Positions 26,966-33,714 of a DNA stretch of 64,000 bases are shown in pieces. A model generated the notes under the pieces. The model made no database searches and had not been told where the DNA came from. It was given only the letters and a program-made list of their open reading frames with translations. Source of the stretch: Mesoaciditoga lauensis cd-1655R = DSM 25116 (GTDB taxonomy: Bacteria > Thermotogota > Thermotogae > Mesoaciditogales > Mesoaciditogaceae); contig NZ_JQJI01000001.1 of NCBI RefSeq assembly GCF_000745455.1, forward strand, positions 1 through 64,000, in the 5' to 3' direction. Position 1 is the stretch's first letter. Each line of letters opens with the position of its first letter. The translations under genes and the position numbers were made by a program.

Positions 26966-27024
26966 TTTTTGTGATATCATGATCGGTAGAACATTTTTTG
27001 AGAGAGTTTGAAATGGAGGGAAAA

Positions 27025-27333
27025 ATGGAAAACAGCAGAAAAGATCAAAACTTTGAAATCGAAAAGTACGTTGATGCCATAAAAAAAGCGGTAAAAGAAG
27101 CGCCTGTACGAAAAGATGATTCCATAGATATCAGTGATCTGTGGGTTATCACATCTTTGCCAGTAGATTTGATCGTGGAATGCGTAAAAAACGAAAAGTT
27201 TGAGATACCGTCATACGTCAAAAAGATAACCGATAGGAAAAGAATAATCCTAAAGAACGATAATTACACTCCTTTACCAGAAGAAGAAAGAGAAAACAAC
27301 CAGAATAAAAATAAAGAAGATAAGTCGGAGTGA
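27025..27333 (+). CDS. Small hypothetical protein
   Basis: A 102-residue charged cytosolic protein that I do not recognise. A central part (DISDLWVITSLPVDLIVECV) looks like a folded helical core that could be a short HTH, flanked by basic and acidic ends. The C-terminus is a low-complexity Glu/Asn/Lys tail. ATG at 27025 follows GGAGGG by four bases; in-frame starts further upstream lack a site. It stands alone between divergent dnaE and the converging gene at 27475. Confidence 0.6.
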   Translation: MENSRKDQNFEIEKYVDAIKKAVKEAPVRKDDSIDISDLWVITSLPVDLIVECVKNEKFEIPSYVKKITDRKRIILKNDNYTPLPEEERENNQNKNKEDKSE

Positions 27334-27474
27334 GAGTCTTTCTCAAAGTTCATGTAATTTTTGGGCCCTATCAGACAACGTGAGTTAGCCAACGAGCAGG
27401 AGATTCAATGATTTTTAAAGTCACAAATTTTGAGAGAGATTCAGACTAGCTCATTATGTTTTACCATTCTTGTG

Positions 27475-28218
27475 TCAGTATCCATCTATACCTGCAAATT
27501 CTGCAGAGTATGCATTATCATATGGAACCAATGCTTTAAATTTCCAAGTTTCATGGGGCCTCAAATTATCGACTATATCGTTTGCATTTCCTACCAAATT
27601 ATTCTCTTCATCATACAAATTAAACCTTATAAACACGCTAGAATAGGTATTATCCGAGCGATTTACTACCGTACCCTCAATGTATTCATTGCCGTAGTTA
27701 TCTGCTGTCCAACCCCATCCTTTAGATAATTTTAGATCCTCATTAGGGTTAAGAGTGGGGGAATTATTATATTGAGCCACTGGAGGCGGTGGGGTTTTAT
27801 TCTGGTAATTATCTACAAAAGATATCACAATAAATCTAAAAATCACGAAAAGCAAGACTACCAGTCCTATCGATTCAATCCAGTCTATTGTGGTTCTTTT
27901 TTTTGTATCAGGATCAGAATAAGTCTTTTCAGAAATGGTTCGGTATTGACTTTGATATTGATAAAGATTTTGCATAAACCTTTCTGCATTTAGCCTTTTA
28001 AATTCTCCCCTCTTTGCAATGTAAATCGGAAAAGCAATAATCCAGATCAACAAACAAGAAAAGAACCATCCCCACGGACCTATATCAAAAAAACCTTTAA
28101 CAAGCCCTTTTCTAACTCCAATTGTTTTAGCATCAACAAGAACCCAAATCGAAGTTCCAAGGACAAGTAATCCCAGCAGTCCTATTAGCCTTATTAGCGC
28201 TAGCTCTACCAGCAACAT
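27475..28218 (-). CDS. Membrane protein with C-terminal FxLYD-like domain
   Basis: A 247-residue protein. Two N-terminal membrane helices (about residues 2-27 and 45-67), a linker, a third helix (about 117-135, LVVLLFVIFRFIVISFV), then an exposed beta domain. That domain reads EGTVVNRSDNTYSSVFIRFNLYDEENNLVG, the pattern of FxLYD domains (novel Ig-like, often on lipoproteins). ATG at 28218 is about nine bases after GGGGGG; a GTG at 28227 touches that site. It precedes nothing obvious and may belong to the accessory stretch. Confidence 0.68.
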   Translation of the reverse strand: MLLVELALIRLIGLLGLLVLGTSIWVLVDAKTIGVRKGLVKGFFDIGPWGWFFSCLLIWIIAFPIYIAKRGEFKRLNAERFMQNLYQYQSQYRTISEKTYSDPDTKKRTTIDWIESIGLVVLLFVIFRFIVISFVDNYQNKTPPPPVAQYNNSPTLNPNEDLKLSKGWGWTADNYGNEYIEGTVVNRSDNTYSSVFIRFNLYDEENNLVGNANDIVDNLRPHETWKFKALVPYDNAYSAEFAGIDGY

Positions 28219-28245
28219 TACAGTCACCCCCCTCTCTTCACTTTA

Positions 28246-28274
28246 ATTTAAAGTACACTATCAAAATATGTAAA
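28246..28274 (-). promoter_or_regulatory. Putative promoter for the FxLYD-domain gene
   Basis: On the minus strand TTTACA (28274-28269) and TTAAAT (28251-28246) are 17 bp apart, ending 28 bases before the ATG at 28218. Confidence 0.5.
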
Positions 28275-28342
28275 GTCACTTATAACGACTTTTCTTTTTT
28301 TTCATGTATCCCTTTTATTCAGGTGTCATTATCGCGAGCTTT

Positions 28343-30244
28343 TCATAACGAATCCACCATCATACAAATTTTCTGAATTTCTGATTTTGGATTTTTCCAC
28401 CAATTAGTGCTCCAAATTCTATAAATGCGCCAGCCTCTGGACTCCAAATATTTTTGCCAATAATAATCACGCTCACGAGCTGATTTGGAGCTATGGTATA
28501 GTTTTCCATCGCATTCTACTCCAAGAATGTATTTATTATCTCGCTTTATTGCGAGATCAATCCTATATCCACCTATTCCAACTTGCGTTTCAACTTCATA
28601 GCCCAGGTCGGTGAGAGAATCGTAAACTTGATTTTCAAAATCGCTATCAAAAGAAATTATTGAACCATTATTTTCGGCATCACCAAACGATAACAAAATT
28701 TGCTTTGCTGACTTGCTATCTCCATTGCTGATCGCTTTCGCATACTGAAGATATTTTTTCAATATTCTTGGGCCCTCATTTTTTGCATCCTCGACCTGTA
28801 GTTCATTTGGATCAAAAGAGTTAACAATAAATACTTTCTTCTTTGCACGAGTAATAGCAACATTTAGCCTATTTTCTCCACCTTTCTGATTAAGCCATCC
28901 ATAACTGCGTACCAATCTACCGGATTCATTTTTTGCGTAGCCAATAGAAAAGATGATAACATCTCGTTCATCGCCCTGCACGTTCTCAATATTTTTTACA
29001 AAAAGCCCAATGTCTTCACCGTTTTCTTTTCGCTCAAGTTCTGCCTTTACAGCGGAGCCAAAGGATATATCTTTAGCGCATTCTTCATCAATAAGGTCAT
29101 CAATTAAGTCACGTTGCGTGATATTGAATGTAATTATTCCTATTGTTTCTGCACCATTCCGGTTTTCAAAAAACTTCTTGAGAAGCCTCACTACTTCTTT
29201 AGCTTCCTGCACGTTTGAACGATTTATCCAACGAGCATCTTTGACAGTAATAAACTCAATAGGAGGTTTATCGGGTTTGCTGGCGTTAGGAGAAACATAC
29301 AATCGTCCTTTATAAAAGGCATAGTTTGAAAATGCGATCAATTCTTCATACTTTGACCTGTAATGGAAATTAAGTAGTATATTCTGATACTTAAATCTGG
29401 CAAGATCAAGTAAACTTTCCTCTTCAAGTGCAGCTGGGATTTCAGCATCGCCTTCTAATAAATCCTCATCAATATCAATTCTGCCTCTTCCAAGACTTGA
29501 TGGTCTAAGCTGTTTGTGATCTCCAGCAACTACAACCTTTTTTGCACGGATGATAGACGGAATACCCTTTTCAATATACATTTGCGAAGCCTCATCAAAA
29601 ATTACAAGATCAAATAATCCTAATTTAAGTGGGATGATTTCAGATACCACTTCTGGTGTGAGAAGCCATATCTTAATCCCATTAAACAGTTCAAGCTCAA
29701 ATTTTTGAACGAACTTGTTTACGCTCCACTTGCGTTTACTTTCCACTACTCTAGCAATTTCACCACGACGTTTTGACATGGTTATACTTCCCATATTTTC
29801 TAATAAAATCTTTTCAAGAAGCTTTCGCGTTAAATCACGTTTTTGCGCGATTGCTTTACTTAGAGATTGAATTACATTATCGAATGATTCAATACTCTGA
29901 AACAGTTCGCGATTTTTCGCTTCAAATCTCTGGATATGTTCAAATAATATTTGGTTAAATAAAATGTTATTGCACTTAGGCAGTTCTCCGTATCCAAGTT
30001 TGTGAAGCTCTCGCATGGAAGAAAAATACGTTTTTTCATTCTCAGAAAGACGATAATACAATGGTTTAAGTTTAGCAAAGTCCGTATAGTACTCCAAACT
30101 ACTTTTTACATCACTAGGCTTTTCAAGCAAAATTTTTTCGTTCTCTTTGTTAGCAACCGAATAATATTCTGCTTGCAAAGTTTTGACCATCTTTTTTAAT
30201 TTTCCTTGGGTAAACAATCTATTAAGCCAGTTTTTGCCTTCCAT
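28343..30244 (-). CDS. C-terminal half of a split SF1 helicase with PD-(D/E)xK/Vsr-like nuclease
   Basis: A 633-residue continuation of the protein encoded at 30196-32091. SF1 motifs II-VI are here: VIFDEASQM (Walker B), VVAGDHKQLRP, LNFHYRSKYEEL, VQGDERDVIIFSIGY and LNVAITRAKKKVFIV. The last 100 residues form a nuclease of the Vsr/DUF559 type (GYRIDLAI, then GVECDGKLYH). It lacks Walker A. Its ATG at 30244 has only GAGAGG one base away, so independent initiation looks weak. Joined to the upstream half it would be a DUF4011-helicase-Vsr protein, a design reported in anti-phage screens. Confidence 0.8.
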   Translation of the reverse strand: MEGKNWLNRLFTQGKLKKMVKTLQAEYYSVANKENEKILLEKPSDVKSSLEYYTDFAKLKPLYYRLSENEKTYFSSMRELHKLGYGELPKCNNILFNQILFEHIQRFEAKNRELFQSIESFDNVIQSLSKAIAQKRDLTRKLLEKILLENMGSITMSKRRGEIARVVESKRKWSVNKFVQKFELELFNGIKIWLLTPEVVSEIIPLKLGLFDLVIFDEASQMYIEKGIPSIIRAKKVVVAGDHKQLRPSSLGRGRIDIDEDLLEGDAEIPAALEEESLLDLARFKYQNILLNFHYRSKYEELIAFSNYAFYKGRLYVSPNASKPDKPPIEFITVKDARWINRSNVQEAKEVVRLLKKFFENRNGAETIGIITFNITQRDLIDDLIDEECAKDISFGSAVKAELERKENGEDIGLFVKNIENVQGDERDVIIFSIGYAKNESGRLVRSYGWLNQKGGENRLNVAITRAKKKVFIVNSFDPNELQVEDAKNEGPRILKKYLQYAKAISNGDSKSAKQILLSFGDAENNGSIISFDSDFENQVYDSLTDLGYEVETQVGIGGYRIDLAIKRDNKYILGVECDGKLYHSSKSARERDYYWQKYLESRGWRIYRIWSTNWWKNPKSEIQKICMMVDSL

Positions 30245-32091
30245 TCCTCTCTGAGTTTCACTAATGTATCGAGTTTTTCCATAAACTGAATGATTTCATA
30301 GTCACTGAGATCCTGCTTTATTTCTGCTAACCATGGAAAATTTTCAAGATAATTGCCATATTTGTCAAGTTCTTCAGAAAGAAAATCATCAGCAAAAGTA
30401 TTATGCAGTGTTTCTACTTCTTGGTATAGTATCGAATATAATGATGCTGGAATGGTAGAGGTTATTGTTTTGTATTTCTCAGTTGCTATATCTATTTTGT
30501 GATTCATCAGATATAATTTATAGGGTTCAATGCCGAAAATACCCACAGTATAAAGTTTATTTGCGATGTTTTCTAATTGCGTGATTTTGTCGTCAATAAA
30601 TCTAGAAACGACAGCCAAACTAGAAAATGGTGACACATCATTTTGAAACGATGGTTTGTTATCTGTATTTATTATATGCTCCAACTGTTGATAAAATAAA
30701 TCTTTATTGCCTACATCGTCAATCAATAACGCATATTTAGACAAATCTCCTAGACGTGAATAAACAACATCAAGTGCAGTCTTTTTCTCGGACACCATTA
30801 GAACAGTTTTTCCTTCACTGATGAATTCAGCAATAAGACTTGTAATAGTTTGAGATTTTCCAGTTCCTGGCGGACCATGCATCACCAACTCACCAAGTTT
30901 TTTTATAGCCACCAGTACTTTTTCCTGTGCGCTGTTTAACTCATTGATATATGTAAGATGTTGCTCAGAAATTCTAAGGGGTTTATTTTCGATACGAATT
31001 TCGTCTTCGCCAGCATAACTGTCAGTATAGTAATCGATATCTTCTGACTCAATTAAAAGATCGTTGACAAGTGAGTTTATTTTATTTTCATCGATAATTT
31101 TATCAAAATCCCTTTGAATAGAACTTGAATATATGGGAAATTTACCTAATATGATATTTCTTACAAGATGTAATTCACCAGAGCGGTATTTTGGAAATTC
31201 ATTTGCATGATACTGAATGAAACGACTTAACTCGTTACCATCATCTGTTATTTCTAACCCATTTTTCTCATAAAAAGAAAGTACTTGTGAGTCAAATGTT
31301 TCCGAGCTCATTTTATCAATAACGACTTCATCAGGCCAACGGCGGTTAATGTTATTGAATTTCTGGTGAGCAAGAATAAGTGTACTGTTGAACATTACAT
31401 CCCTTGATTCATCCAATCGTAGTTTAATGTATCGGGCTGTGCGTTCAAGAGTAACAGGGAAAAGAACCAACGGTGCCTTAACGTCAAAGTTTTCTCCTCT
31501 CATACGACCTTGAACAAATGGATAAGCAATATAAAGATCATATTGACCTTTTTCTCTTGCATCTTTATTAACTTCACGTATGAGTTGTACAAGTTTCCTG
31601 TACTTGTCTGCACCGCTTTGTCCCTGAGATGAAGATTGTTCATTGGTATCACACAGCACTATGCTTTTTGCATTTCCAAATAGTACTCCATTGAGATCAG
31701 AACTAATTGGGGTATCAAAAAGATCAAATGCATATTTATTTGCAATTCTTGGCATATATAGGAGACGATTTCGTCGGTTTATGTTTACCAGTTTCTTTTT
31801 AAGCTCTTTTAGAGTATTTAATACTGATTCATTCATTTCGATTCCGTTCGTTGAAGGAACATATTTCGAAATGATTTTAATAAATGAATCTCCATATTGT
31901 TCAATAAATGTTTTTCCTAAACCGGAGACAGCATAGAGATCGCCAATTTTTTGTGGCTTTAAGCGTGTAATCTCATGGAGCGCGTCTTCAGTACAAACGA
32001 CAGGAGCACGCCCGTTTTTTAAGCGCCCTTGTTCTTTTAATCGTTGACGCAATTTATAAAGTTCATTATATAGTTCTTGATCAGAATCCAT
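30196..32091 (-). CDS. N-terminal half of a split HRDC/DUF4011 SF1 helicase
   Basis: A 631-residue protein. Residues 1-75 resemble an HRDC domain (LYNELYKLRQRLKEQGRLKN, ITRLKPQKIGDLYAVSGLGK). A DUF4011-like region follows (LKKKLVNINRRNRLLYMPR), then the helicase start with Walker A HGPPGTGKSQTITSL near residue 400. The frame stops after an A5 run (30231-30235). One extra A would continue it into the next frame as KNWLNRLFTQGKLKK without loss. So this is either a recent frameshift, a sequencing error, or a slippage site. ATG at 32091 follows GGAGGATATAAT. Confidence 0.8.
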   Translation of the reverse strand: MDSDQELYNELYKLRQRLKEQGRLKNGRAPVVCTEDALHEITRLKPQKIGDLYAVSGLGKTFIEQYGDSFIKIISKYVPSTNGIEMNESVLNTLKELKKKLVNINRRNRLLYMPRIANKYAFDLFDTPISSDLNGVLFGNAKSIVLCDTNEQSSSQGQSGADKYRKLVQLIREVNKDAREKGQYDLYIAYPFVQGRMRGENFDVKAPLVLFPVTLERTARYIKLRLDESRDVMFNSTLILAHQKFNNINRRWPDEVVIDKMSSETFDSQVLSFYEKNGLEITDDGNELSRFIQYHANEFPKYRSGELHLVRNIILGKFPIYSSSIQRDFDKIIDENKINSLVNDLLIESEDIDYYTDSYAGEDEIRIENKPLRISEQHLTYINELNSAQEKVLVAIKKLGELVMHGPPGTGKSQTITSLIAEFISEGKTVLMVSEKKTALDVVYSRLGDLSKYALLIDDVGNKDLFYQQLEHIINTDNKPSFQNDVSPFSSLAVVSRFIDDKITQLENIANKLYTVGIFGIEPYKLYLMNHKIDIATEKYKTITSTIPASLYSILYQEVETLHNTFADDFLSEELDKYGNYLENFPWLAEIKQDLSDYEIIQFMEKLDTLVKLREEWKAKTGLIDCLPKEN

Positions 32092-32198
32092 ATTATATCC
32101 TCCAGTTCCAATTTATAATTTCATTTAGCGACTCAATAGACTCTCAGATTTCTATTTGGCTTTTTTAAAACTCAATAGGTTAGTGTGCATGGAAATTT

Positions 32199-32912
32199 TC
32201 AATAATCTATGTTTGTCACCAATCCGTTTAGTTTTAGTTTGAACCCTTTTAAGCTATTTATTTCAACATAAAATTTCGGAATTCCAACGGCACAGGCCGT
32301 GTATTCGCACTCTTGAAAAAGCAAAAGAAGGGTGTCATTACTTAGAAAAACGAAATCTTGATTCAGATTTATATGTTTGAAATTCCAAAAGTTTTGCCCT
32401 ACAGAAGAAAGGGCATCTTTTTTAACCATTTCGCTCAGTTGAGAGATATAATCCGTACCCTTTGAAAACAAATCGGAAAGCTTTAAAACCTTGCCCGTCT
32501 TCATATCAAAATTCAAAGTGTAAATTGATCCAGAAGGATGCGCCCCACACAAAAACACATCGTCCTTGAAAAGAATGCTTATATATCTTTCACCAAAGAA
32601 AGTGATTTGAGAATTAAATTTATAGCTTACAAACTTAGAAAAGTCAGGAGGAAAATCCTTTATAGTTTCCAACATTGCCTCAGGAAGACCTTTCAACTGA
32701 GCGTTTACTATTTTTAAAATTGCATCGTTTAAATTCTTTTGGACGGTTTTATTAGACAAAGTAAATTGAAAGTATTGAATAAAAAAACGAGGGCCATGAT
32801 AAACAATCACTTGATAAGAAGATTTTTGAAGAGGGCCTAGTTCTTTAGGAACTGTAAAAGCCATTCCTAAAATTGATATAGCCAACAGAAGTAAAAGAAA
32901 TAATCTCTTCAT
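32199..32912 (-). CDS. Secreted DUF3298-type protein
   Basis: A 237-residue exported protein with signal peptide (about residues 1-18, ending GMAFT). The segment FLCGAHPSGSIYTLNFDMKT, then GKVLKLSDLF, is the hallmark of DUF3298/RsiV-like extracytoplasmic domains. In anti-sigma factor RsiV this domain binds lysozyme; here there is no membrane anchor or sigma factor next to it, so only the fold family is claimed. Stands alone with its own promoter. Confidence 0.8.
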   Translation of the reverse strand: MKRLFLLLLLAISILGMAFTVPKELGPLQKSSYQVIVYHGPRFFIQYFQFTLSNKTVQKNLNDAILKIVNAQLKGLPEAMLETIKDFPPDFSKFVSYKFNSQITFFGERYISILFKDDVFLCGAHPSGSIYTLNFDMKTGKVLKLSDLFSKGTDYISQLSEMVKKDALSSVGQNFWNFKHINLNQDFVFLSNDTLLLLFQECEYTACAVGIPKFYVEINSLKGFKLKLNGLVTNIDY

Positions 32913-32948
32913 TCTTTTCCCTACCCCCTAAAATGCGCGTCCTTTCTC

Positions 32949-32976
32949 ATTATATCACCAGATATCGAAAAGACAA
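32949..32976 (-). promoter_or_regulatory. Putative promoter of the DUF3298 gene
   Basis: On the minus strand TTGTCT (32976-32971) and a perfect TATAAT (32954-32949) are 16 bp apart, 36 bases before the ATG. Confidence 0.6.
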
Positions 32977-33039
32977 TAAAAAATGTGTACATATAAAAAG
33001 AGGAGTAAGAAAGTATGAAAAATATCTAAAAAACCAGGA

Positions 33040-33260
33040 CTTTTCACCACGTGCGTGGGCTGTGGCGAAGGCAAGCCGAGCGAAAAGCTTGCTTTGAGCC
33101 GTCGCGAGACGTAAAACTAGTATCTTCAACTCTAAACTTTTTTGGTCATTCCAAACTTGGTTTGGAATCTCTATCTGCTCTCTTTCTTAGAGATCCTGAA
33201 TCTCCCTACGGTCGTTCAGGATGACATGTTCCACGTGCGGGCAAATGGATGCATACGAGC
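33040..33260. repeat. GC-richer intergenic block with two hairpin repeat units
   Basis: Two perfect hairpins stand out: ATTCCAAAC/GTTTGGAAT (33148-33168) and ATCCTGAA/TTCAGGAT (33193-33222), each preceded or followed by a GTCAT/ATGAC-like edge. These resemble short dispersed palindromic units (TCATTCCGAACTTGGTTCGG-type) that I remember from many bacterial genomes. A left part (33040-33110) is GC-rich and contains GCAAGC/GCTTGC. No gene is supported in 32977-33378. Confidence 0.55.
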
Positions 33261-33378
33261 GATGCGCACATATAGTTATGGCAAAAATTGTACCTATATG
33301 TGGAGGTAAATGAGGTTTTCTATTAGTTTAAATGTCTCATTTGACAACTATATCTTACATGGAAGTGATGGATGGAAT

Positions 33379-33403
33379 GAAAAAACCGGGCCTGACGGCC
33401 CGG
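33379..33403 (-). terminator. Rho-independent terminator of the long minus-strand block
   Basis: Minus-strand hairpin CCGGGCC-GTCA-GGCCCGG followed directly by TTTTTT. It lies 54 bases after the stop of the gene at 33457 and closes the nfi/lepA/smc transcription block. Confidence 0.9.
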
Positions 33404-33456
33404 AATTATTATTTCAAAAGTTACAAACTTTTAGAGAGACTCATCAAAAAATTCTT

Positions 33457-33714
33457 TTAATCCTGTTTTCCTCTCATCATTCTGATTCTTTTTTGACCTT
33501 TCTTTATCATGAACACAGAAAGTGCTATCAAAGATGCGGTTATCACGAATACCACCACTATCTTGCTCCAATTGGCGGCAAATGAGGTTACGCTAAGACG
33601 TATTCCGGAATAGACCAACAATCCTACGAGCAACCAAATCACTATCTGGCCCATCATTAAGGAAGTGAGATAAATGGTGTCAGCTTGCCTTTTGAAATCT
33701 TCATCATCCCTCAA
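33457..33714 (-). CDS. Small membrane protein with two helices
   Basis: An 85-residue protein with two membrane helices (about residues 21-43 and 50-71) and a basic C-terminus. Family not recognised. The TTG start at 33714 overlaps the endonuclease V stop (TTGA) and follows GAGGTGG, which supports real translation. Last gene before the terminator. Confidence 0.65.
   Translation of the reverse strand: MRDDEDFKRQADTIYLTSLMMGQIVIWLLVGLLVYSGIRLSVTSFAANWSKIVVVFVITASLIALSVFMIKKGQKRIRMMRGKQD

Follow-up and report, generated by a model that had tools for sequence, protein, structure and literature searches.

A helicase-nuclease gene in two frames

The window analysed here comprises the first 64,000 nucleotides of contig NZ_JQJI01000001.1 of Mesoaciditoga lauensis cd-1655R (= DSM 25116). 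It contains a low-GC insert in which two overlapping frames (halves A and B) carry helicase and nuclease domains. The features of the locus are as follows:

27334-33456, no strand: low-GC insert, 6.1 kb, four genes (GC content and empty-site comparison)
27475-28227, minus strand: insert gene for a membrane protein with an FxLYD domain, 250 aa
28343-30244, minus strand: half B, 633 aa, with motif II onwards, the rest of AAA_11, AAA_12 and MTES_1575 (aa 536-627) (Pfam)
30196-30244, minus strand: overlap of A and B, 49 bases in different frames, with the stop codon of A and the A5 run both inside it
30231-30235, minus strand: run of five A (A5) in coding-strand sense, site of the frame switch (sequence and frame scoring)
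30196-32091, minus strand: half A, 631 aa, with HRDC (aa 5-74), DUF4011 (aa 100-239) and the N-terminal SF1 helicase region with Walker A (Pfam)
32199-32912, minus strand: insert gene for a DUF3298/RsiV-like protein, 237 aa

HRDC, DUF4011, AAA_11, AAA_12 and MTES_1575 all exceeded the Pfam cut-off in the two halves, the HRDC of A scoring 35.3 bits against a cut-off of 23.8. The AAA_11 profile was divided between them, with positions 2-91 matched in A and 113-252 in B, and the alignment motif columns showed that the nuclease of B retains E, D, ExD and H. Pfam thus reproduced the domain order given in the first-pass annotation, which had placed Walker A in the first half and motif II onwards together with a nuclease in the second. 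The solved sequences nearest to the motor were SMUBP-2, SEN1, UPF1 and DNA2, and a passage of PMC3710099 describes MTES_1575 as a Vsr-fold nuclease.

Both halves aligned to consecutive parts of the single-ORF proteins L031 and L225, so that A and B are not a chance pair, and the earlier claim that the two frames represent one protein holds. The nearest relative, L225 (genome G841), is a single ORF of 1,260 aa with 51% identity to A and 67% to B. L031 (JAMPAL010000039.1, labelled as an Anaeroplasma bactoclasticum MAG) is also one ORF, with identities of 47.6% to A and 62.8% to B. That A and B are halves of one HRDC / DUF4011 / UPF1-like SF1 helicase / Vsr-type (MTES_1575) protein is well supported.

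The frame switch at the A5 run

When the frames were scored against L031, the frame of A matched up to W-K-A-K and then failed, and the frame of B matched from K-N-W onwards. The frame switch is therefore located, to a precision of a few codons, at the A5 run (30231-30235), where the split had been placed before. The same place is read in one frame in both relatives (L225, EWKTKNPFLRLL; L031, SWKEKNYIVKLF). One ancestral gene that was broken at the A5 run by one base is thus a well-supported description of the locus. The 49-base overlap and the poor ribosome site of the second ATG, both noted earlier, are present in the sequence. GGAGG ahead of the ATG provides A with a good ribosome site; AGAGAGGA immediately abuts the ATG of B, whose ribosome site is otherwise poor. 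Reading from the start of A stops 46 bases beyond the ATG of B.

The coding strand of the whole gene carries 16 A5 runs, 10 A6 runs and one A7 run, so the A5 run at the switch is an ordinary one. A special status of this homopolymer was ruled out by the 11 longer A runs within the gene. The first-pass annotation had named phase variation and slippage as possible causes of the split, and neither is likely at a run of only five bases. If the length of the run toggled the gene within the population, a homopolymer in a defence-type gene would be a fitting place. This is, however, the least probable of the explanations considered here, since the run is unremarkable among the A runs of the gene, the codons at this place differ in the two relatives compared, and the usual phase-switching tracts are far longer than five bases.

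Some full-length protein, and with it a low level of function, would result if ribosomes shifted by -1 at the A5 run, whether in a programmed or a spontaneous manner, or if the transcript slipped there. The A-AAA before the switch would let a tRNA in the P site shift its pairing back by one base, the sequence AGAGAGG is found a short way upstream of the switch, and both halves look constrained. However, a search for a canonical slippery heptamer in frame at the switch found none, the downstream folds predicted in a search for a stem were weak (-2.1 to -5.8 kcal/mol), the two-frame layout occurred in no relative, and the 11 longer A runs leave the frames of the gene open. We consider such frameshifting improbable.

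Layout of the gene in relatives

The first-pass annotation had proposed a comparison of one-gene and two-gene layouts among homologues, and this was carried out on the 90 genomes that gave a match in three whole-genome searches at set limits (the class to which L031's genome belongs, 58 of 395 genomes; the class of L032's genome, 14 of 391; and the phylum of the window organism, 18 of 103). In 80 of the 90, the protein lay entirely or almost entirely in one frame (55/58, 12/14 and 13/18, respectively). These 80 include G238, G314, G376 and G496, whose in-frame TGAs were read through and taken as another genetic code, and G278, which leaves its contig near the gene end. Five further genomes were cut by contig ends (G312, G465, G489, G104 and G023), and five, including the window genome, held broken or truncated copies (the others being G032, G054, G028 and G564). 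An intact two-gene layout was found in none of the 90. A two-gene layout was excluded on this basis; the short-looking copies of G312, G465 and G489 stop at contig edges.

These counts bear on the idea that both halves are translated and come together as one functional helicase-nuclease. Both frames are otherwise clean, and the split falls in a predicted all-helical stretch between motifs Ia and II, although the model in question, of the helicase part of L031 from a four-row alignment, is weak (mean pLDDT 58, pTM 0.38). In addition, the copy in G564 (L224:8519-10486) is a B-like half alone, 655 aa long, which starts near the split point of the window. Against this, the start of B has a poor ribosome site, the break lies within the first RecA lobe, no intact two-gene case occurs, and the G564 half, altered at one invariant residue of motif II, lacks an A partner in the 18 kb fetched. 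A functional split protein is therefore very improbable, though marginally less so than phase variation.

Other decayed copies occur in the phylum of the window organism (L035:5876-9744 in G032, L036:8614-9835 in G054 and L037:8773-9279 in G028), and these contain stops or frame changes or have shrunk to a remnant. Viral contigs gave no close copies with B as the query and 16 distant loci with the alignment as the query; at all 16 the matched part lay in one frame (wholly at 15 and to 96% at one). A match was found in one of 50,697 phage records, and partial matches, none spanning 80% of the query, were found in 360 of 72,556 plasmid records. Klebsiella accounts for 238 of these 360 plasmid records, and at least one is annotated hhe.

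Origin of the insert

The insert has a GC content of 35.5%, as compared with 40.5% elsewhere in the window, and is the part of the window with the lowest GC. GC3 was 0.26-0.31 in the insert genes and 0.35-0.46 in 16 other genes of the window. The flanks of the insert are at 26998-27333 (plus strand) and 33457-33714 (minus strand), and their counterparts are direct convergent neighbours in G003, G004 and G006. The site was therefore empty in all three relatives that have both flanks on one stretch. The flanking genes of G001 lie on separate contigs, and the left flank gene was not found within the stretch taken from G002 and G007. Neither B nor the FxLYD gene nor the DUF3298/RsiV-like gene had a match in the nine family relatives, nor did the whole L031 protein, which stands in for A as the query. 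Within the insert no recognised mobility gene was found, and a search for end repeats gave short imperfect pairs only.

A quick tree built on the B region, in which support is given as SH-aLRT only and L225 and L224 are not among the rows, placed half B as sister to P0001, the L031 protein (SH-aLRT 92), inside an HRDC clade of 33 rows (SH-aLRT 98). HRDC-less copies of the window organism's own phylum branched outside this clade. The donor was probably Firmicutes-like, since half B lies inside the HRDC clade and the HRDC-less copies of the organism's own phylum lie outside. Based on these results, we consider it probable that the gene was acquired horizontally together with its neighbours in the 6.1-kb insert and then lost its frame very recently by a one-base change, the two events being judged jointly.

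Age of the break and the possibility of an assembly error

Conservation was examined on 148 columns that are identical across 29 family rows, the divergent L131 and the contig-cut L120 having been omitted from the 31 rows for this count. The window copy retains 146 of the 148 residues (48 of 49 in A before the switch and 98 of 99 in B after it), and the intact L225 retains 147 (48/49 and 99/99). The truncated copy in G564 retains 97 of 99, with one invariant motif-II residue and one other changed. The window copy, with 146 of 148 residues retained, thus shows no sign of long decay. Three readings fit this: the break is very recent, the assembly is wrong at this place, or selection still acts on some product.

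The retained residues, without relaxed constraint, are also compatible with an intact gene in living cells, and a real one-base mutation would look the same as a base dropped by the assembly. After the recent loss of an imported gene, the explanation that ranks next is that the cells hold one intact gene and that the 65-contig draft lost a homopolymer base. We regard this as possible but rather unlikely. A single break in ca. 1,250 codons speaks for it, as does the retention of the 146 invariant residues, which is what a working gene would show. On the other side, a stretch of five A is short for an error of the homopolymer type, the window alone having 147 A5 and 192 T5 runs, and the error rate of the assembly appears low. 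This rate was evaluated by comparing ORFs of the same-genus genome G001 with 464 kb of the window genome at a match of at least 60%. Among the 87 matched ORFs, 73 were whole in one frame, eight were partial in one frame and six were flagged, and inspection of the six revealed no clear frameshift in a real gene. Three of them lie within the window and were judged by ORF coordinates to be two upstream extensions and one antisense frame; of the other three, one is a 285-aa ORF interrupted by a stop in frame, one has a stop only at its extreme end, and one runs for most of its length antisense to neighbouring ORFs. This check, with a small sample of 87 ORFs, lowers the likelihood of an assembly error, and a modest error rate remains compatible with it. 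The 285-aa ORF of G001 has its counterpart at L154:1503-2381 of the window genome (contig C7), which is 97.9% identical and carries one in-frame stop.

On balance, the most probable explanation is an imported, single-gene, defence-type helicase-nuclease that was very recently inactivated by a one-base frame change. The window would then contain a large imported defence-type gene caught just after breaking, or else an assembly error.

Comparison with known systems and predicted function

The relatives had been described as defence-type, and partial PADLOC and NCBIfam matches agree with this description. Hhe (NF042953, PADLOC PDLC02194) has the same DUF4011 (by NCBIfam name), SF1 helicase and C-terminal nuclease region, and B matches positions 1262-1681 of its 1797-position profile. 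It differs in that the HRDC part of A is unmatched and the Hhe models are 1,797 and 1,911 long, and its cut-off of 2000 bits was not reached by B (369.8), A (68.4) or the intact L031 (432.4). The helicase and nuclease parts of ProA (NF058533) align over 500 residues; this model, however, is 1,903 long, HRDC lies outside the best matches, and its cut-off of 1500 bits was not reached (B, 433.8; A, 124.9; intact L031, 587.8). Nothing on an antiphage ProA was found in the open-licence papers searched. The top PADLOC match of A, of B and of all four intact relatives tried was PDC-S37 (PDLC05009), which is a candidate defence family only, with a model 1,550 long, and whose name was not found in the open-licence papers searched.

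In RecQ and DpdF, too, a helicase carries HRDC as an accessory domain. Half A matches the C-termini of both, and the alignment matches the RecQ HRDC structures 1wud and 2rhf. The HRDC domain is C-terminal in RecQ and DpdF and N-terminal in the window protein, and the motor of RecQ belongs to SF2. Directly upstream of the intact L031 gene, at L031:226-2036, are two candidate defence genes, T5orf172 (PDC-S57) and DUF2971 (PDC-S31). Partial similarity to PDC-S37, Hhe and ProA, together with these two neighbours of L031, point to a putative role in defence.

Judging from the families of its domains, the enzyme, which intact relatives encode as one protein of ca. 1,260 aa, would engage DNA through HRDC and DUF4011, the N-terminal HRDC probably aiding DNA holding. 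The UPF1-like SF1 motor would travel along the DNA, and the C-terminal Vsr-type nuclease would cut the DNA engaged by the motor. In the window copy, the predicted product of A has Walker A and lacks motif II and the nuclease, and B lacks both a proper ribosome site and Walker A. Since no half has Walker A together with motif II, neither would be a working motor unless the cell restores the frame.

The HRDC clade and loss of the nuclease site

The N-terminal HRDC had been regarded as an unusual addition to this architecture, a view that the relatives do not bear out. Pfam detected HRDC in 27, DUF4011 in 28 and MTES_1575 in 29 of 31 sampled relatives, a set made up of the L031 protein, a second copy (L131) and 29 loci from among the best matches in the class to which L031's genome belongs. 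On these matches, HRDC is a clade feature that is common in Bacilli and not an oddity, and the HRDC-DUF4011-SF1 helicase-MTES_1575 clade is seen here in Bacilli and Clostridia. The window copy has the N-terminal HRDC and clusters with the HRDC members in the B-region tree; with its domains spread over two frames, it is an interrupted member of the clade. Searches of the open-licence literature found no report of DUF4011 together with HRDC, and none of an HRDC domain combined with a helicase, a nuclease and anti-phage activity.

In the alignment, the nuclease positions E, D and the first acidic residue of ExD, residues that we take to be catalytic by analogy with related nucleases, are all kept in the window B, P0001, L225 and L224. 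Only one of the other 29 readable rows keeps all three acidic positions (L105; L120 was unreadable). Most of the sampled Bacilli relatives (L099-L127 and L131) thus seem to have lost the putative nuclease active site. A thymidylate kinase gene (tmk) closely follows the helicase gene at five of the 29 loci L099-L127 (L100, L105, L108, L112 and L113); in the one case checked, L100:5368-6719, tmk is followed by the DNA polymerase III delta' gene. As far as sequence can tell, the adjacency of tmk and the loss of the nuclease site in the Bacilli relatives suggest domestication. We tentatively propose, as a doubtful rather than a probable reading, that the window gene belongs, as a mobile and nuclease-competent member, to the clade that supplied Bacilli with a domesticated, housekeeping helicase; in those bacteria the HRDC-DUF4011 motor would have been kept, the nuclease site lost and some copies placed in a tmk-holB neighbourhood, so that a defence enzyme became a replication or repair factor. 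The HRDC-bearing, one-gene DUF4011 branch, common in Bacilli and with a nuclease site that is apparently mostly lost, would then offer a testable case of a change from defence to household function. An HRDC-less copy from the window organism's phylum, L034, retains the nuclease motif.
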